Shown: positions 22,001 to 43,536 of the stretch, piece by piece | Numbering within the stretch: position 1 is the stretch's first letter | Layout of the letters: every line of letters starts with the position of its first letter | Assembly: GCF_014637725.1 (NCBI RefSeq) | Contig: NZ_BMFC01000001.1 | Coordinates: 64,632 to 128,631, forward strand | DNA: 64,000 nt | DNA from: Marivita lacus | GTDB lineage: Bacteria > Pseudomonadota > Alphaproteobacteria > Rhodobacterales > Rhodobacteraceae | Direction of reading: 5' to 3' | Program-made: the position numbers and the translations under genes | The notes under the pieces: generated by a model | The model's database searches: none | What the model was told of the DNA's origin: nothing | What the model saw: the letters and a program-made list of their open reading frames with translations, nothing else

Positions 22001-22780
22001 TCACACGTGACGCTCGACCATCAGCTTCTTGATCTCGGCGATCGCCTTGGCCGGGTTCAGACCCTTGGGGCAGGTCTTGGCGCAGTTCATGATCGTGTGG
22101 CAGCGATACAACTTGAACGGATCTTCCAGATCGTCCAGCCGTTCACCAGTGGCTTCATCGCGGCTGTCGATGATCCAGCGGTACGCATGCAAAAGCGCTG
22201 CCGGTCCAAGGTACCGATCGCCATTCCACCAGTAGGACGGGCAGGCCGCCGAACAGGACCCGCACATCACGCATTCATAAAGACCGTCGAGCTTCTTGCG
22301 ATCCTCGATGGACTGCTTCCACTCTTTCGCAGGGCGGTTCGTCTTGGTCTCGAGCCACGGCATGATCGACGCGTGCTGCGCGTAGAAATGGGTCAGGTCC
22401 GGGATCAGATCCTTGACCACCGGCATATGCGGCAGCGGATAGATCTTCACATCACCCTTGATCTCGTCGAGACCGTAGATACACGCCAGCGTGTTGATCC
22501 CGTCGATATTCATGGCGCAAGAACCACAGATGCCTTCGCGGCAGGACCGGCGGAAGGTCAGGGTTGGATCGATCTCGGTCTTGATCTTGATCAGCGCGTC
22601 CAGAACCATCGGCCCGCACTTGTCCAAATCGACGAAATACGTGTCCACGCGGGGGTTTTCGCCATCGTCCGGGTTCCAGCGATAGATGCTGAACTTGCGC
22701 ACGTTCTTGGCTCCATCCGGCTTGGGCCAGGTCTTGCCCGTGCGGATGGTCGAATTCTTGGGGAGGGTCAGTTGAACCAT
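22001..22780 (-). CDS. sdhB: Succinate dehydrogenase iron-sulfur subunit
   Basis: Carries electrons from the SdhA flavin to ubiquinone through three Fe-S clusters. The [2Fe-2S] ligands are in [16 protein letters not shown] near residue 85, the [4Fe-4S] ligands in [12 protein letters not shown] near 171, and the [3Fe-4S] ligands in [17 protein letters not shown] near 228. Length of 259 residues is normal. Unlike the usual sdhCDAB order, it is separated from sdhA by 2.1 kb carrying two plus-strand genes and must be transcribed from the 22781-22927 region. It has no copy of the TGTGATCACA operator seen upstream of sdhC. Confidence 0.98.
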
Positions 22781-23998: not shown

Positions 23999-24018
23999 TC
24001 CGGACCGAAAGTTTCCCA

Positions 24019-24882
24019 ATGTCGAACGCGTTTGCAAAACGTATCAAAACCCTTCGCGCCGCTTTGCGCTATGATGAAAAGCTGCATATTACTGATGTCG
24101 GTGCAAATCCGATGAACTTCGAAGCCCCGTACAAAGATCTTCAGGACAACGGCGACGTGGTGGTCACCGGCTTCGATCCGCAGGCCGAAACGCTGGTGAC
24201 GCTGACCGAAGGACGCGGCGAAGGCGACCGCTACCTGCCGCACGCAATCGGCGACGGCAAATCCCACATGCTCAACATCTACAAAGGGTCCGGGCTGACC
24301 TCGCTCCTGTCCATCCGCCGGCCGACCCTGTTTTTCCTCATGGGGCTCAAGCGCGCCGCGCAATTGGTAGAGACTGCGGAAATGGAAACGCGCCGCTTGG
24401 ATGACCTCGACGATATTCAGCGTATCGACCTGCTCAAGATAGACATTCAGGGCGCGGAAATGATGGTGTTCGAGAACGGCAAGGACAAGCTCGCGACTGC
24501 CGTCGCCGTGCACTCGGAAATCAACTTTTTCCCGCTCTATGACGATCAACCCAGCTTTGGCAATATCGACGTGACCTTGCGCAATCTCGGCTTCGTCCCG
24601 CATTCGTTCTATCATACCGTCACGCGGCATGTCCGATCTCGGTACCTGGGTCATGTGACTGACGCGAAACGCACCCATCTTCTGGATGGCGACATCCTAT
24701 ATTTCCGCGACCTGTCCTGCCCCGATGACTTGACCAGCGATCAGCTGCGTAAGATGGCGCTGATCGCGGACGGGATTTACGGATTTACAGATTACGCATT
24801 GCGCTGCATGGACGAACTGGAACGCCGCAACGAGGCGGATGAAGACTCTATCCTCGCCTATGTGAAGGCAGTCAATTCCTAG
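24019..24882 (+). CDS. FkbM family methyltransferase
   Basis: S-adenosylmethionine-dependent methyltransferase of the FkbM family, which often O-methylates sugars in surface polysaccharides. The AdoMet-binding motif is HITDVGANPMNFEAPYKDL near residue 23, and the family-typical LLKIDIQGAEMMVFENG is near 138. Length of 287 residues is normal. It follows the glycosyltransferase closely and its TAG stop overlaps the stop of the sdh-operon lipoprotein gene, read from the other strand. The substrate is presumably the product of the neighbouring transferase, which is an inference. Confidence 0.85.
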   Translation: MSNAFAKRIKTLRAALRYDEKLHITDVGANPMNFEAPYKDLQDNGDVVVTGFDPQAETLVTLTEGRGEGDRYLPHAIGDGKSHMLNIYKGSGLTSLLSIRRPTLFFLMGLKRAAQLVETAEMETRRLDDLDDIQRIDLLKIDIQGAEMMVFENGKDKLATAVAVHSEINFFPLYDDQPSFGNIDVTLRNLGFVPHSFYHTVTRHVRSRYLGHVTDAKRTHLLDGDILYFRDLSCPDDLTSDQLRKMALIADGIYGFTDYALRCMDELERRNEADEDSILAYVKAVNS

Positions 24883-25193
24883 CGCGTGATCAACAGCGCA
24901 GGCAAGCCTCTGGTCGCAAGGCACTGGATCGTCTCGGGTTTCGAGATGATATCGGTCACGATCTGCACCGTGCTTTCCGTCGCACCCGTCACGCCGTCCA
25001 GCGCCAGCGCGCGGATCTGCACGGCGCTGGCATTGTCGATCACGCAGTTCAGAGCAGGTTCAAGCGGCACGCCGGGAAACCGTTCGATCAGCACAGGCGT
25101 GATCGTCGATCGTGCCGCATCGCGGGCGATCTGGTCCTGCTGCTGCACGGAGCAGCCAGCCAGAACCAGAATCGTCGCAAACGCAAGACGCAT
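24879..25193 (-). CDS. Putative lipoprotein translated with sdhA
   Basis: A 104-residue protein with a lipoprotein signal peptide: [19 protein letters not shown], with the lipobox LAGC and modified Cys14. The mature part has two further cysteines (NCVIDNASAVQ and ETIQCLAT), probably forming a periplasmic disulfide. Its ATG overlaps the sdhA stop (ATGA), so it is translationally coupled to sdhA. Small ORFs at this position are common in Rhodobacteraceae sdh operons as I recall them. Role unknown; an accessory to complex II or simple co-expression are both possible. Confidence 0.75.
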   Translation of the reverse strand: MRLAFATILVLAGCSVQQQDQIARDAARSTITPVLIERFPGVPLEPALNCVIDNASAVQIRALALDGVTGATESTVQIVTDIISKPETIQCLATRGLPALLITR

Positions 25194-26998
25194 CAGAACG
25201 TCCGTTCCTTCGGCTTGATCTTCTCAAGCGAAATCCCGCCCTCGGCTTCCGTCGTCAGAGGGTCCTTGACCACTGGTCGATAGGCCAGGTCGGTCTTGTT
25301 TCCGTCGATCCGCGCGATGGTGTGGACACGCCAGTTTTCATCGTCGCGCGTGGTGAAATCCTCGTGCGCATGGGCGCCACGGCTTTCCTTGCGCGCCTCG
25401 GCGCCGGCGATCGTCGCCAGCGCGTTGGGCATCAGGTTGGTCAGCTCGAGCGTTTCCATCAGGTCCGAGTTCCAGATCAGGCTGCGGTCGGTGACCTTCA
25501 GGTCATCCACCTTGCCCGCAATCGCGATCATCTTGTCCAGACCTTCCTTCATCGTCTTGGAGGTCCGGAACACGGCCGCGTCAGCTTGCATCGTCTTCTG
25601 CATCTCAAGCCGCAGCTCGGCCGTCGGCACGTTGCCATTGGCATTGCGCAGACCATCGAAGCGGTCGAATGCCTTGTCCACCGACGCGGTGTTGGTCGCA
25701 GGCACGGCGCTGTTGCGGTCCACGACATCACCCGCACGGATGGCCGCGGCCCGGCCGAACACCACGAGGTCGATGAGCGAGTTTGACCCAAGACGGTTCG
25801 CCCCATGCACCGACGCACAGCCCGCCTCGCCCACGGCCATCAGGCCGGGAACAATGGCGTTCGGGTCTGTCTTGGTCGGGTTCAGAACCTCGCCCCAATA
25901 GTTCGTAGGGATACCGCCCATGTTGTAATGCACGGTCGGCAAAACCGGGATCGGCTCCTTGGTCACGTCGACACCGGCAAAAATCTTGGCGGATTCGGAA
26001 ATGCCCGGCAGACGTTCTGCCAAAGCCTCTTTCGGCAGGTGCGACAGGTTGAGGTGGATGTGGTCGCCTTCGTCCCCGACGCCACGCCCTTCGCGGATCT
26101 CCATCGTCATCGACCGCGACACGTAATCGCGGGGGGCCAGATCCTTGTAGTTGGGCGCATAGCGCTCCATGAACCGTTCGCCTTCGGAGTTGGTGAGATA
26201 TCCACCTTCGCCACGCGCGCCTTCGGTGATGAGACAACCGGAGCCGTAGATGCCCGTCGGGTGGAACTGCACGAACTCCATATCCTGAAGCGGCAGACCC
26301 GCACGGGCAACCATGCCGCCACCATCGCCAGTGCAGGTATGCGCGCTTGTCGCGCTGAAATAGGCACGGCCGTAACCGCCTGTCGCCAGAACGACCATCT
26401 TGGCGTTGAAGACATGCATCGTGCCGTCATCAAGCTTCCAGCAGATGACACCAGTACAGACGCCATCATCCGACATCATCAGGTCGATGGCGAAATACTC
26501 GATATAGAACTCGGCATTGTTCTTGAGCGACTGACCATAAAGCGTGTGCAGGATCGCGTGGCCGGTCCGGTCGGCAGCGGCACAGGTGCGCTGAACCGCC
26601 GGGCCTTCACCGAACTCGGTGGTGTGACCACCAAACGGGCGCTGGTAAATCTTGCCTTCCTCGGTGCGCGAGAACGGCACACCGTAATGTTCCAGCTCGT
26701 ACACCGCCTTGGGTGCTTCACGGGCGAGGTATTCCATCGCGTCCGTGTCACCCAGCCAGTCCGACCCCTTGACGGTGTCGTACATGTGCCACTGCCAGTG
26801 ATCCGGCCCCATGTTCGACAGCGATGCCGCGATGCCGCCCTGTGCCGCAACCGTGTGCGACCGGGTCGGGAACACCTTGGTCACGCAGGCTGTGCGCAAC
26901 CCCTGTTCGGCCATGCCAAGCGTGGCGCGCAAGCCTGCGCCGCCCGCGCCGACGACCACGACGTCATATTCATGCGTCTCGTATTCGTATGCAGCCAT
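25193..26998 (-). CDS. sdhA: Succinate dehydrogenase flavoprotein subunit
   Basis: Catalytic subunit that oxidises succinate to fumarate with covalent FAD. FAD-binding [21 protein letters not shown] is at residues 13-33. The flavinylated His is in [10 protein letters not shown] near 47. The active-site region [21 protein letters not shown] is near 396, and the C-terminal R-rich HAHEDF motif is present. The 601 residues are complete. It lies after sdhD and ends in an ATGA overlap with a lipoprotein gene. Confidence 0.98.
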
Positions 26999-27019: not shown

Positions 27020-27391
27020 TCAAAGGGCCATCTTGGCGATGGCAAAGATGCCGACGGCGGCCGCGCCGTAGCTGATGCCAGTCATGCCAAGGATGAGAAT
27101 TTTCTCCCAGATGCCGTGTACGTAGTCTTCGATCAGCACTTGGAAACCATCGTTGAAGTGCTTGAAGCCCACGATCAGGGTCAGGGCGGCGATGATCGCC
27201 GGGAAGGGACGCGCGTAGTAAGCCTGTACCTCCTCGAAGGACGACCCGAGGATTCCGCCGAAGGTGAAGACGAAGAACGGGATCAGCACCAGAAGCGCTA
27301 CCGACGATTTCTTCATCGCCCAGAAATGCTCGGTCCCGGATTTCGCGGCACCAAGGCCGATGGCGCGTTTGCGGTCTGTCAGAAAAGCCAT
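27020..27391 (-). CDS. sdhD: Succinate dehydrogenase membrane anchor subunit SdhD
   Basis: Integral membrane anchor that, with SdhC, holds heme b and the ubiquinone site. The 123 residues contain three hydrophobic helices (about 30-50, 60-78, 98-120), with a conserved HFNDGFQVLIEDYVHG between helices two and three that carries the likely heme/quinone-region His and the characteristic Asp-Tyr. It lies 10 bases after sdhC and 21 bases before sdhA. Confidence 0.95.
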   Translation of the reverse strand: MAFLTDRKRAIGLGAAKSGTEHFWAMKKSSVALLVLIPFFVFTFGGILGSSFEEVQAYYARPFPAIIAALTLIVGFKHFNDGFQVLIEDYVHGIWEKILILGMTGISYGAAAVGIFAIAKMAL

Positions 27392-27401
27392 GTTGCGCCC
27401 C

Positions 27402-27788
27402 TTACCAAAGAACGATGACGGAAAGGACGGTCAGGACAACCGAACCGATTACAGCGATCCAACCCAGCATTTCCGCGTTTTCGATTTCAAGCATCTTGGC
27501 ATTGTCCCAGATCAGGTGACGGATGCCGGCAAGCGTGTGATACCAGAGCGCCCAGAGCGACAGGAACATCACCAGATCGCCGAACCAGCTTGTGACAAAG
27601 CCGTTGGCAACAGCGAAATATTCCGGCCCCGTAGAGGCCGCGAGCAGCCACCAGACGATCATCAGCGATGCCACGATCAGGGCATTGCCCGTGATCCGCG
27701 TGAGGATCGACGTGATCGATGTCAGCTGGGGACGATATACTTGCAGGTGGGGTGACAGGGGTCGATTGCCCCGATTGACGTCAGCCAT
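27402..27788 (-). CDS. sdhC: Succinate dehydrogenase cytochrome b556 subunit SdhC
   Basis: Membrane subunit of complex II. The family signature RPLSPHLQVYRPQLTSITSILTRITGNAL spans residues 7-36, and the heme-ligand region WYHTLAGIRHLIWD is near 88. There are three helices. ATG at 27788 (MADVNRGNRPLSP) has an AGGAC ribosome site and gives 128 residues, the family length; the ORF remains open to 27860 but the extra N-terminus is not SdhC-like. First gene of sdhCDA-lipoprotein. Confidence 0.96.
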   Translation of the reverse strand: MADVNRGNRPLSPHLQVYRPQLTSITSILTRITGNALIVASLMIVWWLLAASTGPEYFAVANGFVTSWFGDLVMFLSLWALWYHTLAGIRHLIWDNAKMLEIENAEMLGWIAVIGSVVLTVLSVIVLW

Positions 27789-27905
27789 GGTCTGAGTCCT
27801 TTCCGGTTCCTTGAGTGCCTTTTTATGCCTTTTGAGAGCCATGTCACGCGGACCAACCACCCCGAGGCGCGGTTTTTTGGCGCAACCAGGCAGAAAAATC
27901 GAAAA

Positions 27906-27938
27906 TTGTGATCACAGCAACAAAAACTGTGATCACAA
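27906..27938 (-). promoter_or_regulatory. Tandem TGTGATCACA operator upstream of sdhC
   Basis: Two perfect copies of the 10-bp palindrome TGTGATCACA lie at 27907-27916 and 27928-27937, 21 bp apart start to start with an 11-bp spacer. Each is flanked outside by T or A to give TTGTGATCACA and TGTGATCACAA. They lie about 118 bp upstream of the sdhC ATG. The same pair with the same spacing occurs upstream of sucC, so this is most likely the operator of a shared TCA-cycle regulator binding as two dimers on one face of the helix. Confidence 0.8.
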
Positions 27939-28064
27939 GGGGCAATCTCCTAGAAACCTACTGTTTTACTAATGTTTTTTCGGGTGCCGCGATCTGCACC
28001 CACGCCGCACCGACATGCTCTCCTGAACACGCCTTTCGCACGATCATACCGTTGCCCAATGACG

Positions 28065-29096
28065 TCAGACCGGCATCAAGGCCCAGTAATCCAGATCCAG
28101 CAGGACATGCGGCAGGTATTTCCCGTCATCACCCTTCAACTCCATCGACCCGCCCGCCGATGTCGCCACCAGCCGCAAGCGCACAGCACCCACACCGGGG
28201 GCTTCGGTTTTCGCCTTGTCCAGCACTTCGGACCACGCCCGCACGGTGGTGCCGCTGAAACACGGGTTCGCATGTGCGCCCGCGTTCAGACCGACGATCA
28301 TCTGCGCATTGGCCAAGCCGTTGAACGACAGCGCGCGCGCCATGCTGATGACATGCCCGCCATAGATCAGCCGCTGCCCGTCAGGCCGGAACGTGGCATC
28401 AAAATGCACCTTGGCCGTGTTCTGCCACAGCCGCGTCGCCATCATGTGCTCGGCTTCCTCGACGGTCACGCCGTCCACGTGGTCGATCTTTTCCCCGATC
28501 TCGTAATCGCCCCAGCGATGTGGCTCGCCCGCCAGTTCGAAATCATAGCCTGTGAAATCGAGGCCCGCCGGAATGCTCAGATCCCCAACCGCGAGGACCG
28601 GTTTCAACTCAGGCACCACTGTCTCGGGCGCTGCGGCATCGGCATCGCGCTTGCGCACCATGACCCAGCGCACATACTCCATGACCAACTCGTCATGCTG
28701 GTTCAGACCGCGTGTCCGCACCCAGACCACGCCGGTCTTGCCGTTAGAATTCTGCTTGAGGCCGATCACCTCGGATTCCGACCGCAGCGTGTCGCCCGGC
28801 CAGACAGGTGTCACCCAACGCCCCTCGGCATAGCCCAGATTGGCCACCGCGTTCAGCGACACATCCGGAACCGTCTTGCCAAACACCACATGGAACGCAG
28901 CCAGATCGTCAATCGGCGCAGACGGCAAGCCACAGCTTTGTGCAAACAGGTCCGACGAATACAGCGCATGCCGCGCCGGATACAGCGCATGATAGAGCGC
29001 CCGCTCCCCACCCGACACCGTGCGCGGCACCGCGTGGCGGATCACCTGCCCGACCGTGTAATCCTCGAAGAACCGGCCTTCGTTCGTCTTGGTCAT
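28065..29096 (-). CDS. mch: Mesaconyl-CoA hydratase (MaoC-type double hot-dog)
   Basis: Hydrates mesaconyl-CoA to beta-methylmalyl-CoA in the ethylmalonyl-CoA pathway. The start ATG at 29096, behind GGGGGGCGCG, gives 343 residues, which is the length I recall for the characterised Rhodobacter enzyme. Two MaoC-like halves are visible: GRFFEDYTVGQVIRHAVPRTV with the following YHALYPARHALYSSD, and GDYEIGEKIDHVDGVTVEEAEHMMATRLWQNTAKVHFD. It is upstream of sdhC in the same orientation and downstream of the DUF1737 gene. Confidence 0.92.
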   Translation of the reverse strand: MTKTNEGRFFEDYTVGQVIRHAVPRTVSGGERALYHALYPARHALYSSDLFAQSCGLPSAPIDDLAAFHVVFGKTVPDVSLNAVANLGYAEGRWVTPVWPGDTLRSESEVIGLKQNSNGKTGVVWVRTRGLNQHDELVMEYVRWVMVRKRDADAAAPETVVPELKPVLAVGDLSIPAGLDFTGYDFELAGEPHRWGDYEIGEKIDHVDGVTVEEAEHMMATRLWQNTAKVHFDATFRPDGQRLIYGGHVISMARALSFNGLANAQMIVGLNAGAHANPCFSGTTVRAWSEVLDKAKTEAPGVGAVRLRLVATSAGGSMELKGDDGKYLPHVLLDLDYWALMPV

Positions 29097-29136
29097 CGCG
29101 CCCCCCTTGGACTTGGTCGCGGGTCGGTCGAGTGTG

Positions 29137-29340
29137 TCACTGTTCGCCAAGTTTCATCTCCGGATCGTAGGGTGTGTCGATCTCCTTGGTCACCGCCTGC
29201 CCACAGCGCATGACGCCGTTGGCATGGTCGAAGGCATAGGTCGGATCGCCGTAAAGCTCCCACCCCTTGCTCAGGGCCAGCGACACTTTATGGCAAAAGG
29301 CCGATGTGTCGTCTTCGGTCAAAAGTCGATAGATTTTCAT
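29137..29340 (-). CDS. DUF1737 domain protein
   Basis: The 67-residue protein matches the small DUF1737 family (KIYRLLTEDDTSAFCHKVSLALSKGWELYGDP...CGQAVTKEI). It is a soluble, single-domain protein with two cysteines and no known function. It lies between mch and nnrU on one strand, four bases from the latter, in the usual Rhodobacteraceae order. Confidence 0.85.
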   Translation of the reverse strand: MKIYRLLTEDDTSAFCHKVSLALSKGWELYGDPTYAFDHANGVMRCGQAVTKEIDTPYDPEMKLGEQ

Positions 29341-29343
29341 ACC

Positions 29344-29892
29344 TTACCCCGGAAACGGCCAGACGCCGAGCCATGCGTGAATGGCAGCAATCACGACAAA
29401 GGACACCAGCGTGATGACAACAAGAAGCACGTCCTTCTTGGCCTCGCCGGGCTGCGGACGATTCCAGACCGGCTCGGCGCGGTTGATGATGATCACCTCC
29501 AGCACCGCCCAGGCCAGCAAACCGCCGAACAGGATGATCGACGCCAGATCGCCATTCACCAACAGGTGCGCCACGGCCCAGATCTTGACCGAAACAAGCT
29601 GCGGATGCCGCATCTTGCCGCGAAGACGGCCAGTCGTGGCACTCATGCCGAAGACGAAAAGAGCGACCAGCATCAGCAGGTTGTTGATATGCACCATGAA
29701 ACTGGGCGGAGACCAGACGTGGATGAACGCGGCCCCGCGATAGCCCCAGATCATCAGGCCGATGCTGATCACCAGGGCTACGGTGACAATCAGCTTGCCG
29801 GTGTCGCCCATCGCGGCGCGCTGCTCTGGCGCGACACGTTTGAAGATATGGGCCCCGACCCAAATCAGCAGTCCGAGAACTAGAAGAGCCAT
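29344..29892 (-). CDS. NnrU family membrane protein
   Basis: Integral membrane protein of the NnrU family, first named in denitrification gene clusters of Rhodobacter but widespread in organisms that do not denitrify. The 182 residues contain about five to six helices. The family motifs are LLIWVGAHIFKRVAPEQRAAMG near the start, IWGYRGAAFIHVWSPPSFMVHINNLLML near 48, and RHPQLVSVKIWAVAHLLVNGDLASIILFGGLLAW near 95. No nitrite/nitric oxide reductase genes are in the window, so the nitrogen-oxide link is only by family name. Confidence 0.9.
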   Translation of the reverse strand: MALLVLGLLIWVGAHIFKRVAPEQRAAMGDTGKLIVTVALVISIGLMIWGYRGAAFIHVWSPPSFMVHINNLLMLVALFVFGMSATTGRLRGKMRHPQLVSVKIWAVAHLLVNGDLASIILFGGLLAWAVLEVIIINRAEPVWNRPQPGEAKKDVLLVVITLVSFVVIAAIHAWLGVWPFPG

Positions 29893-29897
29893 CTGGC

Positions 29898-30755
29898 TTA
29901 CCCCGCTTGGATGGTTTCGATTGCCTCTGCTTTTGCCAGTATTTCACGGGCAGTGGCAACGTGAAGGTTTTCGACGATCTTTCCATCGACCACCGCGACA
30001 CCCTGCCCTTCGGCCTCAGCCGTCTCGAACGCCGCGATCTGACGCCGTGCAAGGTCAATCTCTTCGGGCGCGGGGGCAAAGGCGGTGTTGGCGATGTCCA
30101 CCTGCGCTGGGTGGATCAGCGTCTTGCCGTCAAAGCCCATGTCGCGGCCTTGGATGCACTCGGCCTTCAGTCCCTCATCATCCTTGAACGCGTTATACAC
30201 ACCGTCCACAATCACCAGCCCCTCGGCCTTGGCCGCCAGCAGGCACATCGACAAAGACGTGATCAGCGGCAACCGATCCGCACGGAACCGGGTCTGCAAT
30301 TCCTTGGCCAGATCATTGGTGCCCATCACCATGCCTGCCATCTTCGGGTGCGCCGCAATCTCCGCCGCGTTCAGCATGCCACGCGGCGTTTCCATCATCG
30401 CCCAGATCGGCAGATCGCCGGTGATCTCGGCCAGCGCGTCAAGCTGCGCGGTGGATTCCACCTTGGGCAACAGCACTGCGTCACAATCCATCTGCGCCAC
30501 CACCTCGGCATCAGCCCGGCCCCAGTCGGACTCCAGACCGTTGATCCGAACGATCCGCACCCGCGCGCCGTATCCGCCGGTGGCCAGAGCCGCCTTCAAC
30601 GTCTCGCGTGCGGCGGGTTTTTCCTCCACCGCCACCGCGTCTTCCAGATCGAAGATGATCGCGTCCACAGGCAACCCGCGCGCCTTGTCCAGCGCCCGGT
30701 CCTTCGATCCCGGAATGTATAGAACCGAGCGATAGGGGCGGCTGCGCATGTCCAT
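29898..30755 (-). CDS. mcl2: (3S)-malyl-CoA thioesterase / CitE-like lyase-family protein
   Basis: CitE/HpcH-type TIM-barrel enzyme acting on malyl-CoA in the ethylmalonyl-CoA pathway; the thioesterase branch (Mcl2) releases malate. The 285 residues carry RSVLYIPGSKDRALDKA, the metal-binding IIFDLEDAVA, PKVEST and WAMMETPRGMLNA, and GFDGKTLIHPAQ near 200. The length is shorter than the Mcl1 malyl-CoA/beta-methylmalyl-CoA lyase, and its position beside mch and sdh favours Mcl2. AAGGAG lies six bases before the ATG. The lyase activity cannot be excluded from sequence alone. Confidence 0.8.
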   Translation of the reverse strand: MDMRSRPYRSVLYIPGSKDRALDKARGLPVDAIIFDLEDAVAVEEKPAARETLKAALATGGYGARVRIVRINGLESDWGRADAEVVAQMDCDAVLLPKVESTAQLDALAEITGDLPIWAMMETPRGMLNAAEIAAHPKMAGMVMGTNDLAKELQTRFRADRLPLITSLSMCLLAAKAEGLVIVDGVYNAFKDDEGLKAECIQGRDMGFDGKTLIHPAQVDIANTAFAPAPEEIDLARRQIAAFETAEAEGQGVAVVDGKIVENLHVATAREILAKAEAIETIQAG

Positions 30756-30944
30756 GGCGGTCTCCTTGACGTGTCTGCGTAATAATGTTGCGCCAGAGAG
30801 CTACATTCTTTTGCAAAAACTGCAAGGTCCGATGTGCCGCGCCGCAGAAAAAAGTGCTGCACCCGCATTCCGAACGCCGCGTTAACCAGATCACAACCGC
30901 TGCGCCCGACGCTCAGCCCATCACAGCTGAACAGGGGCAAGGCG

Positions 30945-31255
30945 ATGACACAGAACTTCTGGACCATGACGGTCCTCGCAACAGGCGCATTGATCGCGTC
31001 GACGACACTGACCCAAGCACAACAGAACTGCGCCGACCGCGCTTTGGTGATCGAACGGCTCGCCAGCACCTATGGTGAAACCCGCCAATCCATCGGCCTT
31101 GCGCAGAACAACACCATGGTCGAGGTCTTCGCTTCCACCACGACCGGAAGCTGGACAATCACCGTGACCAATGCCGCCGGTCTGACCTGCCTTGTCGCCA
31201 GCGGTGAGGCGTTCGAACGGCTGGCCGAAACCCTGCCGACCCCGGCCGAGGATGC

Positions 31256-31259
<4 letters not shown>
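30945..31259 (+). CDS. Small secreted periplasmic protein of unknown function
   Basis: The 104-residue protein starts at the ATG at 30945 (MTQNFWTMTVLATGALIAST), a clear signal peptide with likely cleavage after TQA near residue 25. The mature part contains two cysteines (NCADRAL and LTCLVAS) and a short domain VIERLASTYGETRQSIGLAQNNTMVEVFASTTTGSWTITVT that recurs in small Rhodobacteraceae secreted proteins, as far as I recall. An upstream start at 30834 lacks such a leader. It ends convergently with the TSUP gene, overlapping by four bases. Confidence 0.7.
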
Positions 31260-33121
<1,862 letters not shown>

Positions 33122-33147
33122 CGCGCCCTTTCGATTTCGCGTTCACG

Positions 33148-33176
33148 GGCCGCCCGGCATCGGGCGGCCTTCTTTT
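33148..33176 (+). terminator. Intrinsic terminator of mdh
   Basis: The perfect 9-bp stem GGCCGCCCG/CGGGCGGCC with a GCAT loop is followed by TTCTTTTG, 27 bases after the mdh stop. Confidence 0.88.
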
Positions 33177-33257
33177 GTGGGCCCAGTATCACTGTTCAAC
33201 GCAAACACTGCATGCGCCTCGTTCTTCGCGGTAGCAATATGGCCGACATGATGTAGC

Positions 33258-33277
33258 CTGCTCTCAAAAAAGAGCAG
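33258..33277 (+). promoter_or_regulatory. Hairpin immediately before the glycosyltransferase start
   Basis: The 7-bp inverted repeat CTGCTCT/AGAGCAG with a CAAAAA loop ends five bases before the ATG at 33282. The weak ribosome-binding sequence AGAG lies inside the second arm, so the hairpin could hinder translation. Confidence 0.4.
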
Positions 33278-33281
33278 CATT

Positions 33282-34244
33282 ATGTCCTTTACCCTGTTTT
33301 CGAGCCTTAAGAACGAGGGTCCATTCATTGTGGAATGGGTCGCATATCATCGCGTGATCGGCTTTGATCGCATCGTGATCGCGTCCAACGATTGCCAAGA
33401 CCGCTCGGACGGTGTTCTTGCCGCTCTGGACCGGGAAGGACTAATCGAACACCGACCGAATATCCTGTACGGCAAACTCTCACCGCAAATGCAAGCCGAG
33501 GCAAAGGCGCGGCGCGATGGCGTGTTCCGAAACGGCGACTACGTCATGTGGCTGGATCTTGACGAGTTCCTCGTGCCCCCAGAGCGCATGCCATCTGTAA
33601 GCGACCTTGTCCGCGCCTTGCATGCCAGGGGCGGAACGTCGATCTCGATCAACTGGCGCATCATGGGTGACAGTGGCTTTGCCGGCTTGCCGAACGGTTT
33701 TGTCCTCGACAAATTCACAGGAACCTCGAAGAGGTTTTTCCGGCTATCGTCCCCGGTCAAAACCCTGTTCCGCTACAGCGACGCCGTCGAACAACTCCAT
33801 CTGCACCGTCCGATCTGGATACAGGGAGCAGAAGACAGCGTGACGATGCTTGACGGATGCGGGGCGAAACTCGGACACGAGTATTTTACCGAACGCTTCC
33901 GCGACGGATCACCGAAAGGTGGGGTCGCTCCCCGAAACGGGTTCTCTCGTTTCGGACGCATCAATCACTACTGTGTCCGCACGCGCATGCTTTATGCACT
34001 GAAACAAGCCCGAGGATTGGGTTTCTTTGGTGGCAATGGCGCTCATCTCGCCCGCTATTCGGACACGTTCTTCGACCGCTTCAATCAGAACGTCGCCCAA
34101 TCCCATGACATCCTGCGATATCACGATTTGCTGGTCGATGAACACGCGCGCATCCTCAGCGTTTCCAACATAAAACGAGCGCATGAAGCATCGGTGAAAG
34201 CAACTTTGGCTGCCATGCCGTCGCTCGCGAGAACTGCAGCCTAG
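33282..34244 (+). CDS. Glycosyltransferase family 2 protein
   Basis: Predicted GT-A-fold sugar transferase of the type often annotated Glyco_tranf_2_4. The N-terminus has SLKNEGPFIVEWVAYHRVIG, the nucleotide-sugar/metal D-x-D motif is in MWLDLDEFLVP near residue 90, and an acidic/aromatic acceptor region follows. It has 320 residues and no signal peptide or membrane helix. It stands alone between the mdh terminator and the sucC operator, splitting mdh from the suc operon. Codon choice looks somewhat less G/C-ended than in its neighbours, although I did not compute it; transfer is possible. Confidence 0.82.
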   Translation: MSFTLFSSLKNEGPFIVEWVAYHRVIGFDRIVIASNDCQDRSDGVLAALDREGLIEHRPNILYGKLSPQMQAEAKARRDGVFRNGDYVMWLDLDEFLVPPERMPSVSDLVRALHARGGTSISINWRIMGDSGFAGLPNGFVLDKFTGTSKRFFRLSSPVKTLFRYSDAVEQLHLHRPIWIQGAEDSVTMLDGCGAKLGHEYFTERFRDGSPKGGVAPRNGFSRFGRINHYCVRTRMLYALKQARGLGFFGGNGAHLARYSDTFFDRFNQNVAQSHDILRYHDLLVDEHARILSVSNIKRAHEASVKATLAAMPSLARTAA

Positions 34245-34282
34245 CCGAGACGGAGATGTGATTCTTAACCGAAACATTATTT

Positions 34283-34315
34283 TTGTGATCACACGATTTT
34301 TAGCTGTGATCACAA
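34283..34315 (+). promoter_or_regulatory. Tandem TGTGATCACA operator upstream of sucC
   Basis: Two perfect TGTGATCACA palindromes lie at 34284-34293 and 34305-34314, with 21 bp between starts and an 11-bp spacer, about 112 bp upstream of the sucC ATG. Sequence, spacing, flanking T/A and distance to the start all repeat the arrangement upstream of sdhC, which points to one regulator for both operons. Confidence 0.8.
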
Positions 34316-34426: not shown

Positions 34427-35620
34427 ATGAACATCCACGAGTATCAGGCGAAAGCCCTGCTACGCAGCTACGGCGCTCCGGTGTCGGATGGCCGCGTGGT
34501 CCTCAAGGCCGAAGAGGCCAAGACCAAGGCAGGCGAGATGGACGGCCCACTCTGGGTGGTCAAGGCCCAGATCCACGCGGGTGGCCGCGGCAAGGGCAAG
34601 TTCAAGGAAGACAGCGCTGGCGAAGCCGGTGGTGTGCGCCTGACCAAATCGGTGGAAGAAGCCGCCGAAGAAGCAAAGAAGATGCTGGGCCGCACCCTTG
34701 TGACCAAGCAGACCGGCGACGCCGGCAAACAGGTCAACCGCATCTATATCGAAGATGGCTCGGGCATTCAGACAGAGATGTATCTCGCCCTGCTGGTCGA
34801 CCGCCAGACCTCCCGCGTGTCCTTCGTGGCCTCCACCGAAGGCGGCATGGATATCGAGGAAGTCGCGGAACATACGCCCGAGAAAATCCTCAGCTTCTCG
34901 GTCGATCCCGCCACTGGCTACCAGCCGTTCCACGGCCGTCGCATCGCCTTCAACCTCGGTCTCGAAGGCAAGCAGATCAAGCAGTGCGTCCAGCTGATGG
35001 GCATTCTCTACAAGCTCTTCGTCGAAAAAGACATGGAGATGCTGGAAATCAACCCGCTTATCGTCACCGACGAAGGCGATCTGAAATGCCTCGACGCCAA
35101 GATGAGCTTTGACGGCAACGCCATGTACCGCCACCCGGATATCGCAGAACTGCGCGACACCACCGAAGAAGACCCCAAAGAGCTTGAGGCCTCCAAGTAC
35201 GACCTCAACTACATCGCTCTGGACGGTGAGATCGGCTGCATGGTGAACGGTGCGGGCCTTGCCATGGCGACGATGGACATCATCAAACTCTACGGTGCCG
35301 AACCGGCCAACTTCCTCGATGTGGGCGGCGGTGCGACACGTGAAAAGGTCACCGAGGCGTTCAAGATCATCACCTCGGACCCGCAGGTCAAGGGCATTCT
35401 GGTCAACATCTTCGGCGGCATCATGCGCTGCGACGTCATCGCGGAAGGCGTGATCGCCGCGGTGAAAGAGGTGGGCCTCAAGGTGCCGCTGGTTGTGCGT
35501 CTCGAAGGCACGAACGTCGAAAAGGGCAAGGAGATCATCCAGAACTCCGGCCTCGACGTGATCGCCGCCGACGACCTCAAGGACGGCGCCCAGAAAATCG
35601 TAAAAGCAGTAAAGGGCTAA
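34427..35620 (+). CDS. sucC: Succinyl-CoA synthetase beta subunit (ADP-forming)
   Basis: With SucD makes succinate and ATP from succinyl-CoA. The 397-residue ATP-grasp protein starts [16 protein letters not shown], the typical beginning, and has [15 protein letters not shown] near 46, [13 protein letters not shown] near 206 and the conserved [13 protein letters not shown] near 303. It opens the operon sucC-sucD-DUF805-sucA-sucB-MAPEG-lpd; sucD starts four bases after its stop. Transcription is likely controlled by the tandem palindromes upstream. Confidence 0.98.
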
Positions 35621-35624
35621 GCAG

Positions 35625-36509
35625 ATGGCCGTACTTATCGACGAAAACACCAAAGTCATCTGCCAGGGCCTCACCGGCTCGCAGGGGACATTCCACACCG
35701 AACAGGCCATCGCCTATGGCACCAAGATGGTCGGCGGCGTGACACCGGGCAAAGGCGGGATGACCCATCTCGACCTGCCCGTGTTCAACTCGGTCCACGA
35801 GGCCAAGCACGCGACCCACGCGAACGCGACCGTGATCTACGTGCCGCCGCCCTTTGCCGCCGACTCGATCCTCGAGGCGATCGACGCCGAGATGGAAGTG
35901 ATCGTCTGCATCACCGAAGGCATCCCGGTCATGGACATGATGCGCGTCAAGCGCGCGCTGGAGACCTCCAAGTCGCGTCTGATCGGCCCGAACTGCCCCG
36001 GTGTCATCACGCCCAATGCCTGCAAGATCGGCATCATGCCCGGCCACATCCACCGTCGCGGCAGCGTCGGCGTTGTGTCGCGCTCCGGCACGCTCACCTA
36101 CGAGGCGGTCAAGCAGACCACCGATGTGGGCCTGGGCCAGTCCACCTGCGTCGGCATCGGCGGCGACCCCATCAAGGGCACCGAGCATATCGACGTGCTG
36201 GAATGGTTCCTCGCAGATGACGAGACCGAGAGCATCATCATGATCGGTGAGATCGGCGGCTCTGCCGAGGAAGAAGCGGCGCAGTTCCTGGCCGATGAAA
36301 AGAAGCGCGGTCGCTGGAAGCCCACCGCCGGTTTCATCGCGGGCCGCACCGCCCCTCCGGGACGCCGCATGGGCCATGCCGGCGCGATCGTCGCGGGCGG
36401 CAAAGGTGGTGCCGAGGACAAGATCGAAGCGATGAAAGCCGCAGGCATCGTCGTGGCCGAAAGCCCCGCACAGCTTGGCGAAGCGGTGCTTGCCGCGATC
36501 AAGGGCTGA
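35625..36509 (+). CDS. sucD: Succinyl-CoA synthetase alpha subunit
   Basis: The CoA-binding and phosphorylated subunit. The N-terminal CoA site has [33 protein letters not shown] near residue 10, the [10 protein letters not shown] loop is near 123, and the active-site phospho-His is in [10 protein letters not shown] near 249. Length of 294 residues is normal. It is followed by a GC-rich hairpin (CCGGGC-ATTT-GCCCGG at about 36556) before the DUF805 gene, which may reduce read-through or stabilise the upstream mRNA. Confidence 0.98.
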
Positions 36510-37096: not shown

Positions 37097-40063
37097 ATGA
37101 CAGACCAAAGCCCCAACGACCTCTTCCACGCTTCCAGCTTCATGCAGGGGCACAACGCGGCCTATCTTGAACAGATGTACGCGCGCTACGCGAGCGATCC
37201 CAGCGCGGTCGACGAGGCGTGGCAGGCGTTCTTCCGGCAGCTGGGCGATGACGAAGTCAGCGTCAAGAAAGAGGCGACAGGCCCAAGCTGGGCGCGCACC
37301 GACTGGCCGCCGCTGCCCAATGACGACCTGACGGCGGCGCTGGACGGTCAATGGCCCGTCGCCCCCGCCGAGGCGAAAAGCGCCGGTGACAAGATCAAGG
37401 CCAAGGCCGAGGAAAAGGGCGTTCAGGTCACCGATGACGCCATCCAGCGCGCCGTTCTGGACAGCATCCGCGCGCTCATGATCATCCGCGCCTACCGCAT
37501 CCGGGGCCACCTTGCCGCCGATCTCGATCCGCTGGGCATGCGCGAACAGACCGCGCACCCGGAACTTGAGCCGAAATCCTACGGCTTTACCGAGGCGGAC
37601 ATGGACCGCCCGATCTTCATCGACAACGTTCTGGGCCTCCAGATCGCCTCGATGCGCGAGATCCTCGACATCGTGCGTCGCACCTATTGCGGCACCTTTG
37701 CGCTGCAATACATGCACATCTCCGATCCCGAACAATCCGCATGGCTGAAGGAACGGATCGAAGGCTACGGCAAGGAAGTCGCGTTCACCCGCGAAGGCCG
37801 CAAGGCGATCCTGAACAAGATGGTCGAGGCCGAAGGCTTCGAAAAGTTCCTCCATGTCAAGTACATGGGCACCAAGCGCTTTGGCCTCGATGGCGGCGAA
37901 AGCCTGATCCCCGCGATGGAGCAGATCATCAAGCGCGGCGGCAACCTCGGCGTCAGGGACATCGTCATCGGCATGCCGCACCGGGGCCGCCTGTCGGTTC
38001 TGGCCAACGTGATGCAAAAGCCCTACCGCGCGATCTTCAACGAATTCCAGGGCGGCAGCTTCAAGCCCGAAGAGGTCGACGGCTCAGGCGACGTGAAATA
38101 CCACCTCGGCGCCAGTTCCGACCGCGAGTTCGACGGCAACACCGTCCACCTGTCGCTGACCGCGAACCCCTCGCACCTCGAAGCGGTCAACCCGGTCGTT
38201 CTGGGCAAGGTGCGCGCCAAGCAGGACCAGATCAGCGACAGCGAACGCCGTCAGGTCATGCCCATCCTGCTGCACGGCGATGCGGCCTTTGCCGGTCAGG
38301 GCGTCGTGGCGGAATGTTTCGCCCTGTCCGGTCTGCGCGGGCACCGCACCGGCGGCACCATGCATATCGTGGTGAACAACCAGATCGGTTTCACCACCGC
38401 CCCGCATTTCTCGCGCTCCTCGCCCTACCCGACCGACAACGCGCTGGTGGTCGAGGCGCCGATTTTCCACGTCAACGGCGACGACCCCGAAGCGGTTGTG
38501 CACGCCGCCAAGGTCGCGACCGAGTTCCGTCAGAAATTCGGCAAGGACGTGGTCATCGACATCTTCTGCTACCGCCGCTTCGGTCACAACGAGGGGGATG
38601 AGCCGATGTTCACCAACCCGTTGATGTACAAGAAGATCAAGCAGCAGAAGACCACGCTGTCGCTTTATACCGAACGTCTGGTCAAGGACGGCCTGATCCC
38701 CGAGGGCGAAATCGAGGACATGAAGGCGGCGTTCCAGTCGCACCTCAACGAGGAATTCGAGGCCGGCAAGAACTACAAGCCCAACAAGGCCGACTGGCTC
38801 GACGGGCGCTGGAGCCATCTCGACCGTCAGGACAAGGACGATTACCAGCGCGGCCAGACCGCGATCAGCCCCGACACGATGCAGCAGGTCGGTGAGGCGA
38901 TCACCCGCTTGCCCGATGGCTTCCCGGTGCACAAGACCGTCGCGCGCCTGCTCGAGTCCCGCAAGGAGATGCTCGAGACCGGCGTGAACTTCGATTGGGC
39001 CACCGCCGAAGCACTGGCCTTCGGATCGCTCCTGACCGAAGGCTACCCGGTCCGTCTGGCCGGTCAGGACAGCACACGCGGCACGTTCAGCCAGCGTCAC
39101 TCGGCGTTGGTGAACCAGGAAACCGAGGAACGGTACTACCCGCTCAACCATATCCGTGAAGGACAGTCGCGTTTCGAAGTGATCGACTCGGCCCTGTCGG
39201 AATACGCGGTGCTGGGTTTCGAATATGGCTACTCGCTGGCCGAACCCAACGCGCTGACCCTCTGGGAAGCCCAGTTCGGCGATTTCGCCAACGGTGCGCA
39301 GATCATGTTCGACCAGTTCATCAGCTCCGGCGAAAGCAAGTGGCTGCGCATGTCGGGTCTCGTGTGCCTCTTGCCGCATGGCTATGAGGGACAGGGGCCT
39401 GAACACTCGTCCGCCCGCCTCGAACGGTTCCTGCAGCAATGCGGTCAGGACAACTGGATCGTCGCCAATTGCTCGACCCCGGCCAACTACTTCCACATCC
39501 TGCGCCGCCAGCTGCACCGGTCCTTCCGCAAGCCGCTCATCCTGATGACGCCGAAATCGCTGCTGCGTCACAAGCTGGCCGTGTCCAAGACCGAGGAATT
39601 CACCACCGGGTCCAGCTTCCACCGCGTGCTCTGGGACGATGCGCAATATGGCAACTCGGAGACCAAACTGGTCAGCGACGACAAGATCGAACGCGTCGTG
39701 ATGTGCTCGGGCAAGGTCTATTACGACCTGCTCGAGGAACGCGACGCCCGTGGCATCGACGACATCTACATCCTGCGTTTTGAGCAGTTCTACCCGTTCC
39801 CGGCGATCTCTGCGGTCAAGGAGCTTGAACGCTTCCCCAAGGCCGAGATGATCTGGTGCCAGGAAGAACCCAAGAACCAGGGCGCCTGGACCTTCATGGA
39901 ACCGAACCTCGAATGGGTTCTGGGCCGCATCAATGCCACGCATCCGCGCCCCCGCTACGTGGGCCGCGCCACATCGGCCTCGCCCGCGACGGGTCTGGCC
40001 AGCCAACACAAAGCACAGCAAGCAGCACTCGTTGACGAAGCGCTGACGATCGAAGGGAACTAA
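37097..40063 (+). CDS. sucA: 2-Oxoglutarate dehydrogenase E1 component
   Basis: Thiamine-diphosphate-dependent decarboxylase of the 2-oxoglutarate dehydrogenase complex. The 988 residues start with the E2-binding N-terminal motif SSFMQGHNAAYLEQMYARYASDPSAV. The active-site HRGRLSVLANVMQKP is near residue 295, HLGASSDREF near 336, the ThDP/Mg region GDAAFAGQGVVAE near 394, and the C-terminal transketolase-like domain has RGTFSQRHS near 661 and EGQGPEHSSARLERFLQ near 765. It is three bases from sucB. Confidence 0.98.
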   Translation: MTDQSPNDLFHASSFMQGHNAAYLEQMYARYASDPSAVDEAWQAFFRQLGDDEVSVKKEATGPSWARTDWPPLPNDDLTAALDGQWPVAPAEAKSAGDKIKAKAEEKGVQVTDDAIQRAVLDSIRALMIIRAYRIRGHLAADLDPLGMREQTAHPELEPKSYGFTEADMDRPIFIDNVLGLQIASMREILDIVRRTYCGTFALQYMHISDPEQSAWLKERIEGYGKEVAFTREGRKAILNKMVEAEGFEKFLHVKYMGTKRFGLDGGESLIPAMEQIIKRGGNLGVRDIVIGMPHRGRLSVLANVMQKPYRAIFNEFQGGSFKPEEVDGSGDVKYHLGASSDREFDGNTVHLSLTANPSHLEAVNPVVLGKVRAKQDQISDSERRQVMPILLHGDAAFAGQGVVAECFALSGLRGHRTGGTMHIVVNNQIGFTTAPHFSRSSPYPTDNALVVEAPIFHVNGDDPEAVVHAAKVATEFRQKFGKDVVIDIFCYRRFGHNEGDEPMFTNPLMYKKIKQQKTTLSLYTERLVKDGLIPEGEIEDMKAAFQSHLNEEFEAGKNYKPNKADWLDGRWSHLDRQDKDDYQRGQTAISPDTMQQVGEAITRLPDGFPVHKTVARLLESRKEMLETGVNFDWATAEALAFGSLLTEGYPVRLAGQDSTRGTFSQRHSALVNQETEERYYPLNHIREGQSRFEVIDSALSEYAVLGFEYGYSLAEPNALTLWEAQFGDFANGAQIMFDQFISSGESKWLRMSGLVCLLPHGYEGQGPEHSSARLERFLQQCGQDNWIVANCSTPANYFHILRRQLHRSFRKPLILMTPKSLLRHKLAVSKTEEFTTGSSFHRVLWDDAQYGNSETKLVSDDKIERVVMCSGKVYYDLLEERDARGIDDIYILRFEQFYPFPAISAVKELERFPKAEMIWCQEEPKNQGAWTFMEPNLEWVLGRINATHPRPRYVGRATSASPATGLASQHKAQQAALVDEALTIEGN

Positions 40064-40066
40064 GAC

Positions 40067-41599
40067 ATGACAACCGAAGTGCGTGTGCCCACGCTGGGTG
40101 AATCCGTGACAGAAGCCACGGTCGCCACATGGTTCAAGAAGCCGGGCGACAGCGTTGCCGTGGACGAAATGCTGTGCGAACTGGAAACCGACAAGGTGAC
40201 GGTCGAAGTGCCCTCGCCCACCGCGGGTGTTCTTGCCGACATCGTCGCCAATGAAGGCGACACGGTCGGCGTCGATGCGCTGCTGGCCAATATCGCCGAA
40301 GCGGGCGAAGCCGGATCGGCCACCCCCGAGGAACGCCCCTCGGCCAAGGCCGCCGCTGCTGCCGAAGCCGTGTCGGACGATGCCAAGACCGTCGATGTCA
40401 TGGTCCCCACGCTGGGCGAGTCGGTCTCAGAAGCGACCGTTTCGACCTGGTTCAAGAAGGTCGGTGACACTGTTGCGCAGGACGAAATGCTCTGCGAGCT
40501 GGAAACCGACAAGGTGTCAGTCGAAGTGCCCGCTCCTGCCGCAGGTGTCCTGTCCGAGATCACCGCCGCCGAAGGCACGACCGTTTCGGCCGGTGGCAAG
40601 CTGGGTGTGATCGGTGGCAAGGCGGGTGCATCAGCCTCCGCCAGCGCGCAGGAAACCGCCCCCGCCCCGGCAGTCCAGCCTGCCTCGACCGGCGCCGGGG
40701 ATGTCGAAGACGCGCCCTCGGCGAAGAAGGCGATGGCCGAAGCGGGCGTCAGCCGCGATCAGGTCCAGGGCTCGGGCCGCGATGGCCGCGTGATGAAGGA
40801 AGACGTGGCCAAGGCCGTCGCCGCCGCAGCCAGCGCTCCCGCCGCACAGACATCGGCCCCGGTCTCCACGCCGCGCGCACCCGTCAGCGCCGATGATGCC
40901 GCGCGCGAGGAACGGGTCAAGATGACCCGCCTGCGCCAGACCATCGCCCGCCGCCTCAAGGACGCGCAGAACGCCGCTGCGATCCTGACCACCTACAACG
41001 AGGTCGACATGACCGAGGTCATGGCGCTGCGCAACGAGTACAAGGACCTCTTTGAGAAGAAACACGGCGTCCGCCTCGGCTTCATGTCCTTCTTCACCAA
41101 GGCCTGCTGCCACGCGCTGCGCGAAGTGCCCGAGGTCAATGCCGAGATCGACGGCACCGACATCGTCTACAAGAACTTCGTCCACATGGGCGTCGCCGCA
41201 GGCACGCCGCAAGGCCTCGTGGTGCCGGTCATCCGCGATGCCGACCAGATGAGCTTTGCGGAGATCGAGAAAGCCATCGCCGAAAAGGGCCGCCGCGCCC
41301 GTGACGGCAAGCTGTCGATGGCGGAAATGCAGGGCGGCACCTTCACCATCTCGAACGGCGGTGTCTACGGCTCGCTCATGTCCTCGCCGATCCTGAACCC
41401 GCCGCAATCGGGCATCCTCGGCATGCACAAGATCCAGGACCGCCCGATGGTCGTGGGCGGCGAGATCGTGATCCGCCCGATGATGTATCTCGCCCTCAGC
41501 TACGACCACCGCATCGTCGACGGCAAAGGCGCCGTGACCTTCCTCGTCCGCGTCAAGGACGCGCTCGAAGACCCGCGCCGGTTGCTGATGGATCTGTAA
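40067..41599 (+). CDS. sucB: Dihydrolipoamide succinyltransferase E2 with two lipoyl domains
   Basis: E2 core of the 2-oxoglutarate dehydrogenase complex (510 residues). Two tandem lipoyl domains are seen, about residues 2-77 and 107-182, each with the lipoylated Lys in ELETDKV. After an Ala/Pro/Ser linker comes the E1/E3-binding domain (about 206-245, [22 protein letters not shown]) and the catalytic domain with the active-site motif [12 protein letters not shown] near 480. Most E. coli-type SucB proteins have a single lipoyl domain; two is a lineage feature worth noting. It is followed by a palindromic repeat and the MAPEG gene. Confidence 0.97.
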
Positions 41600-42147: not shown

Positions 42148-43536
42148 ATGGCACAATACGACGTCATCATCATCGGCTCCGGCCCCGGCGGCTACGTGGC
42201 CGCGATCCGCTGCGCTCAGCTCGGCCTGAAGACCGCCTGCGTCGAGGGCCGCGAGACATTGGGCGGCACCTGCCTCAACGTGGGCTGCATTCCCTCCAAG
42301 GCGCTGCTGCACGCCACCCACCAGCTGCACGAGGCCGAGCACAACTTTGCCAAGATGGGCCTCAAGGGCAAATCGCCATCCGTCGACTGGAAACAGATGA
42401 TGGCCTACAAGGATGACGTGATCGGCCAGAACACCAAGGGCATCGAATTCCTGTTCAAGAAGAACAAGATCGACTGGCTCAAGGGCTGGGGCTCCATCCC
42501 CGAGGCGGGCAAGGTCAAGGTCGGTGACGACGTGCACGAAGCCAAGAACATCATCGTGGCCTCCGGCTCCGAGGCCAGCAGCCTGCCGGGTGTCGAGATC
42601 GACGAGAAGGTGGTTGTCACATCGACCGGCGCGCTCGAATTGCCGAAGATCCCGAAAAAGATGATCGTCATCGGCGCGGGGGTGATCGGGCTCGAACTGG
42701 GGTCGGTCTATTGCCGCCTTGGCACAGAGGTGCATGTGATCGAATATCTCGACGCCATTACGCCCGGCATGGATGCCGAGGTGCAAAAGGCCTTCCAGAA
42801 ACTGCTGCAGAAACAGGGTCTGACCTTCACGATGGGTGCCGCCGTGCAATCGGTCGACGCTGGCAAGAGCAAGGCCAAGGTCACCTACAAACTGCGCAAG
42901 GATGACAGCGAGCACGAGATGGACGCAGATGTGGTGCTCGTCTCCACAGGGCGTCGCCCCTTCACCGACGGTCTGGGCCTCGATGCGCTGGGGATCGAGA
43001 TGTCGCCGCGCGGCCAGATCAAGACCGACGCGCATTGGCAGACCAATGTCAAAGGCATCTACGCCATCGGCGATTGCATCGACGGCCCGATGCTGGCCCA
43101 CAAGGCCGAGGACGAAGGCATGGCCTGCGCCGAGGTGATCGCGGGCAAGGCGGGTCATGTGAATTACGGCGTCATTCCCGGCGTGATCTATACCCACCCC
43201 GAGGTCGCCAATGTCGGCATGACCGAGGAACAGCTCAAGGAAGCGGGCCGCAATTACAAGGTCGGCAAGTTCAGCTTCATGGGCAATGGCCGGGCCAAGG
43301 CCAACTTTGCCGCCGACGGGTTCGTGAAGATCCTCGCCGACAAGGACACCGACCGCATCCTGGGCGCGCATATCATCGGCCCGATGGCGGGCGATCTGAT
43401 CCATGAGATTTGTGTCGCGATGGAGTTCGGTGCGTCGGCCGAGGATCTGGCTCTCACCTGCCACGCGCACCCGACCTATTCCGAGGCGGTGCGCGAGGCG
43501 GCACTTGCCTGTGGCGACGGTGCCATCCACATGTAA
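42148..43536 (+). CDS. lpd: Dihydrolipoamide dehydrogenase (E3)
   Basis: Flavoprotein that re-oxidises lipoamide with NAD+ for the 2-oxoglutarate dehydrogenase complex. The 462 residues show the FAD-binding [20 protein letters not shown] at 6-25, the redox disulfide in [16 protein letters not shown] near 43-58, the NAD-binding [19 protein letters not shown] near 176, and the interface His-Glu pair in [16 protein letters not shown] near 440. It ends the sucCD-sucAB operon, so all parts of the complex are encoded together. Confidence 0.98.

Follow-up and report, generated by a model that had tools for sequence, protein, structure and literature searches.

Tandem palindromes upstream of sdhC and sucC

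The window analysed here, a 64,000-nucleotide stretch of the genome of Marivita lacus (Rhodobacteraceae; contig NZ_BMFC01000001.1, positions 64,632 to 128,631), contains the succinate dehydrogenase genes on the minus strand and, on the plus strand, genes for succinyl-CoA synthetase and 2-oxoglutarate dehydrogenase (Table 1). Our subject is the 10-mer palindrome TGTGATCACA, of which the window holds four exact copies (27907-27916, 27928-27937, 34284-34293 and 34305-34314), arranged as two pairs of the form TGTGATCACA-N11-TGTGATCACA. One pair lies 118 bp before the start codon of sdhC (ATG 27788, minus strand), the other 112 bp before that of sucC (ATG 34427), and the operator core GTGATCAC is present in both. 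The two 31-bp units have both palindromes, the preceding T and the trailing A in common; their 11-bp spacers are unlike, with some bases matching. A first-pass annotation, made from the sequence alone, had described two perfect palindromes 21 bp apart before each gene, at these distances and with matching outer flanks and differing spacers, and all of this was confirmed when the copies were matched exactly and the start codons checked.

A search of the whole 4.77 Mb genome with up to three mismatches returned the pair at just the sdhC and sucC places and the reversed-pattern control at none, which is why we take the tandem pair to exceed chance expectation. The single exact palindrome occurs at 10 places, compared with one for the reversed pattern. 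Four of the 10 make up the two pairs, one precedes a GntR-family gene, and five lie within or overlap coding open reading frames (ORFs; frames judged by eye).

In CRP sites the half-sites are 6 bp apart. The halves of the palindrome, TGTGA and TCACA, look like those of CRP but abut with a gap of 0, which rules out a canonical CRP/FNR site, as the first-pass annotation had already argued. CceR (RSP_1663) is predicted to control central carbon metabolism in Rhodobacter (Cereibacter) sphaeroides, sdh included, but it belongs to the LacI family and its motif is GTT-N6-8-AAC (PMC4344238, excerpt); the palindrome has no GTT...AAC, and a CceR site is ruled out as well. We give a site of either type practically no chance of being the explanation.

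Table 1. Coordinates of the palindrome pairs, the promoter element and the sdh and suc genes in the window
Feature	Position	Strand	Basis
Two TGTGATCACA palindromes before sdhC, 21 bp from centre to centre (tandem operator)	27907..27937	.	Exact match and genome pair search
Two TGTGATCACA palindromes before sucC, 21 bp from centre to centre (tandem operator)	34284..34314	.	Exact match and genome pair search
GTGACA element, possible -35 element of the sdhC promoter	27842..27847	-	Recurrence of GTGAC after the pair in sdhC loci
sdhC, first gene of the sdh operon	27402..27788	-	Pfam Sdh_cyt; start codon checked
sdhD	27020..27391	-	Pfam Sdh_cyt
sdhA	25193..26998	-	Pfam FAD_binding_2 and Succ_DH_flav_C
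sdhB, split from sdhA by an inserted plus-strand gene pair	22001..22780	-	Pfam Fer2_3
sucC	34427..35620	+	Pfam ATP-grasp_2 and Ligase_CoA
sucD	35625..36509	+	Pfam CoA_binding and Ligase_CoA
sucA, 2-oxoglutarate dehydrogenase E1	37097..40063	+	Pfam
sucB, dihydrolipoyl succinyltransferase E2	40067..41599	+	Pfam
lpd, dihydrolipoyl dehydrogenase E3	42148..43536	+	Pfam Pyr_redox_2 and Pyr_redox_dim

Conservation, spacing and promoter context of the pair

We searched 394 Rhodobacteraceae genomes from 393 genera and found the pair, at two mismatches or fewer, in 340 of them, with 0 rows for the reversed-pattern control; within the window's own genus it was present in 17 of 17 genomes. At the 30 loci fetched from the family search, which are not a random draw, the gene downstream was sucC in 23 cases and sdhC in seven, and five further family loci from three genomes likewise all had the pair before sucC or sdhC. 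The operator that the first-pass annotation had proposed to be shared by sdh and suc is thus kept in relatives, and its suggestion to list the downstream genes across the family gave sucC or sdhC without exception at the 30 fetched loci. It had named two contrary outcomes, namely that close relatives lack the pair in front of sdh and suc, or that it falls within genes as often as upstream of TCA-cycle genes; at the fetched loci the comparison favoured the operator reading. In a class-wide sample the pair was found in five of 385 genomes (reversed control: one place, in G470). Because four of these five carriers are Rhodobacteraceae, a family with five sampled members in this set, the pair looks like a family trait.

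When the gap between two GTGATCAC cores was left free at 3 to 32 bases, a pair was found in 361 of the 394 genomes. Spacing was counted on the 75 distinct pairs among the first places listed in this search: the centres lie 21 bp apart in 63, 20 bp apart in six and at other distances in six. The spacer is partly constrained in the 63 pairs at 21 bp, with G or C as first and last bases in 80% and A or T at 67-74% in the middle seven. The position of the pair relative to the gene is nearly fixed as well: in 24 of 26 sucC loci its distance to the start is 105-112 bp (149 and 176 bp in the other two), and in 10 of 11 sdhC loci it is 106-143 bp (190 bp in the remaining one). A spacing of two helical turns together with this upstream position would suit two dimers bound to the same face of the DNA, with the downstream promoter as their target. 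The first-pass annotation had put forward the same arrangement of dimers, with which the mostly fixed spacing is consistent.

Both promoters share a conserved T-rich tract that lies some 10 bp downstream of the pair, as counted on 25 sucC and nine sdhC loci (L056, L067 and L198 were dropped from the information counts as having long leaders or being near-duplicates). GTGAC recurs downstream of the pair in 10 of 11 sdhC loci, starting at 58-60 bp in nine and at 48 bp in one, compared with one of 26 sucC loci; judging from this recurrence, it may serve as a -35 element or bind another regulator. A sigma-70 promoter scan returned two matches (3.3 expected), neither of them near a pair.

The T-rich tract would also suit a reading of the pair as RNA, in which a stem-loop followed by a T-run acts as terminator or attenuator, and the two palindromes can indeed pair with each other, the sdh copy scoring as terminator-like. 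However, the region has about as many terminator-like sites as chance would give (16 versus a mean of 15.3), a hairpin requires neither self-palindromic arms nor a loop fixed at 11, and most loci of the regulator gene akgR, described below, carry one copy only. We regard an RNA element as very improbable.

A GntR-family regulator linked to the pair

The genome yields 26 GntR-domain hits, none of them within the window, in keeping with the first-pass statement that the regulator is not encoded there. On another contig, an exact palindrome (C5, 27612-27621) precedes a GntR-family gene, beginning 17 bp ahead of its start; the product of this gene, P0001, has 216 amino acids with GntR and FCD domains. 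With at most one mismatch, the palindrome is found within 300 bp upstream of the regulator gene at 107 of 110 orthologue loci, and the remaining three match at two mismatches; these loci represent the closest orthologues (at least 77.8% identity), with species partly repeated. At 59 loci the best site begins 17 or 18 bp before the start, and most loci have a single copy. The palindrome also precedes the Paracoccus denitrificans orthologue of P0001. In one genome the spacing at the regulator gene itself is different, with two cores just ahead of the orthologue and 13 bp between their centres (G187:C1:3357949-3357969).

P0001 orthologues (E < 1e-70, a cut chosen after a gap in the list was seen) are present in 356 of the 394 family genomes. 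The GTGATCAC pair is found in 351 of these 356, compared with 10 of the 38 others (Fisher 1.7e-29, kinship ignored). An alternative cut at E 1e-25 gave 356 of 372 versus 5 of 22, and the two-mismatch version of the pair, at the E < 1e-70 split, gave 330 of 356 versus 10 of 38. Genome lists with and without pair or orthologue were compiled by eye, and their totals agree with the tallies. The first-pass annotation had asked which transcription factor co-occurs with the pair; the P0001 orthologue tracks it.

Among solved structures, the best relative of P0001 by sequence is Escherichia coli McbR (PDB 4p9f, E 6.2e-21), a protein with another function than AkgR. The usual metal ligands of FCD domains are Asp-His-His-His. 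The corresponding positions of P0001, aligned by eye, are N137, H141, H184 and D206, each invariant in 85 of 85 orthologues, and residue 139 is acidic (D in 14, E in 71 of the 85). Because the metal positions so aligned read Asn137/His141/His184/Asp206 with an acidic residue 139, the effector pocket may differ from the usual FCD one.

We take AkgR to be RSP_0981, as reportedly stated in the abstract of the mBio 2015 paper. The targets predicted for the GntR-family protein RSP_0981 of R. sphaeroides are sucCD, sdhCDA and the genes of 2-oxoglutarate dehydrogenase (PMC4344238, excerpt), and GTGATCAC was identified among the sites of AkgR, which is called a transcriptional activator (PMC6365646, excerpt). 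Genomes likely to belong to the R. sphaeroides genus were traced by a plasmid of strain 2.4.1, which matches G395 at 96% over 3.7 kb and G051 at 86% over 2.5 kb; because of these matches we take their genus to be, likely, Cereibacter. Each of five genomes of this genus has one P0001 orthologue, which stands beside sdhB in three of the four fetched loci. In G051 the gene order is lpd, sucB, sucA, sucD, sucC, mcl, mch, sdhC, sdhD, sdhA, sdhB, akgR, with pairs before sucC and sdhC. The RSP numbers cited in PMC4344238 (excerpt) imply the same order, and P0001 is therefore very probably the orthologue of AkgR, by gene position in sister species. The M. lacus system thus resembles the AkgR regulon in its GntR-family orthologue (by position), in the palindromic core GTGATCAC and in its targets, with operators before sucC and sdhC: sucCD, sdhCDA and, provided that sucAB-lpd share the sucC promoter, 2-oxoglutarate dehydrogenase. 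It differs in that akgR of the M. lacus genome lies on another contig than sdh and has a single site before its start. The GntR-type regulator at which the first-pass annotation had guessed is likely AkgR, a GntR/FCD protein encoded elsewhere in the genome.

Taken together, the tandem palindromes are very likely AkgR operators, at which pairs of dimers would activate sdh and suc, while the single site would mediate autorepression of akgR. Each TGTGATCACA would bind one dimer of AkgR (GntR family, FCD subfamily), and two such dimers, with centres 21 bp or two turns apart on the same helix face, would cooperate upstream of the sdh and suc promoters. The AkgR pair most likely activates, jointly, the genes of succinate dehydrogenase, succinyl-CoA synthetase and 2-oxoglutarate dehydrogenase, and the single palindrome near the akgR start codon most likely permits self-repression. 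An activating sign is proposed because of the wording of PMC6365646 (excerpt) and the position of the sites. Repression at akgR is proposed because of site position alone.

Many FCD-type GntR proteins are repressors, and the single akgR site is located where a repressor would sit. AkgR might accordingly bind the pair and repress sdh and suc, to be relieved by a metabolite of the tricarboxylic acid (TCA) cycle. The pair, however, lies at distances from sucC and sdhC that probably place it upstream of the promoter, and AkgR is termed a transcriptional activator (PMC6365646, excerpt); we consider repression at the pair unlikely. A further, rather doubtful extension of the activating scheme is that AkgR takes its sign from how the operator is laid out: an upstream pair locked at 21 bp would activate, perhaps by bringing the alpha subunit of the polymerase onto the downstream T-rich tract, and a lone dimer at akgR would repress. 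In this reading, a distant GntR/FCD relative outside the family, in L204, may use the pair for another regulon.

L204 holds the only pair found outside the family, in another member of the class (positions 991-1021). It adjoins the gene of a GntR/FCD protein 26% identical to P0001, and because of this neighbourhood distant GntR/FCD relatives may use the same paired layout; on the other strand lies an ORF that, by eye, begins like an exported protein. This neighbourhood, the 26 GntR-domain hits in the genome and a second match to P0001 at E < 1e-25 would leave room for a different regulator at the pair, for example a second FCD-type GntR protein, with AkgR merely sharing the half-site. Against such a regulator, which we consider improbable, only one exact site in the genome precedes a GntR gene, that of P0001, and the co-occurrence of P0001 with the pair is strong.

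Several observations weigh against assigning the pairs to AkgR. Ten genomes carry the pair without an orthologue at E < 1e-70 (nine of them 70-93% complete, G114 100%), and five genomes with an orthologue are without an exact-core pair, among them G040, which has the pair at two mismatches. The reversed control was not empty throughout, with one place each in G243 and G340 in the free-gap search, besides the one in the class search. P0001 is tied to RSP_0981 by position in sister species and not by sequence comparison with RSP_0981 itself, and the motif, the targets and the sign of control of AkgR are taken from excerpts of citing papers and from what the mBio 2015 abstract reportedly states. 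Finally, the akgR genes of four genomes of the likely R. sphaeroides genus (L198-L201), three of which lie beside sdhB, have no exact core upstream, and for this reason autoregulation appears to vary rather than to be universal.

Operon organisation, known systems and significance

The first-pass annotation had placed sdhCDA and sucCD-sucAB-lpd under one operator. The shared operator stands, with two corrections to the operons behind it. A DUF805-domain ORF (Pfam) sits between sucD and sucA, because of which a single sucCD-sucAB-lpd transcript is plausible only, and sdhB is separate from the other sdh genes. Between sdhA with its small neighbour gene and sdhB, all on the minus strand, lie plus-strand genes for a glycosyltransferase and an FkbM-type methyltransferase (22928-24882). 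Among six fetched relatives from the genus, one (L228) has the same insertion and four have sdhA, the small gene and sdhB contiguous; in L231, sdhB was not found before the fetched stretch ends. In the window's strain sdhB may need a promoter of its own. The region between suc and sdh (28065-30755) contains mesaconyl-CoA hydratase-like and HpcH/HpaI-type lyase-like genes, which occupy the same place in G051 and G397.

As a TCA-cycle regulon the system has already been described for R. sphaeroides. What may be new to the literature is the fixed geometry of the tandem and the lone autoregulatory site, neither of which is mentioned in the excerpts of PMC4344238 and PMC6365646. A literature search with the exact 10-mer returned 12 papers, none with a title on this subject; the one bacterial paper among them, PMC12724174, has the 10-mer within a cloning primer (excerpt). 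When the literature was searched for paired GntR sites at sdh and suc, PMC4344238 ranked first and no title dealt with a tandem operator (titles only). The same core GTGATCAC is the proposed site of PS417_07240, a GntR-like regulator of deoxyribonate use in Pseudomonas simiae, at -47 to -40 of its own gene, but that protein has other targets and one palindrome is named for it, not a pair (PMC6365646, excerpt).

A TCA-cycle regulator known in one phototroph would thus extend to most sampled genera of a large family. The pair at 21 bp would provide a sharp sequence signature for predicting AkgR targets, and the distinction between paired upstream sites and a lone site at the regulator's own start may offer a simple rule, open to test, by which a single protein could act as activator and as repressor.

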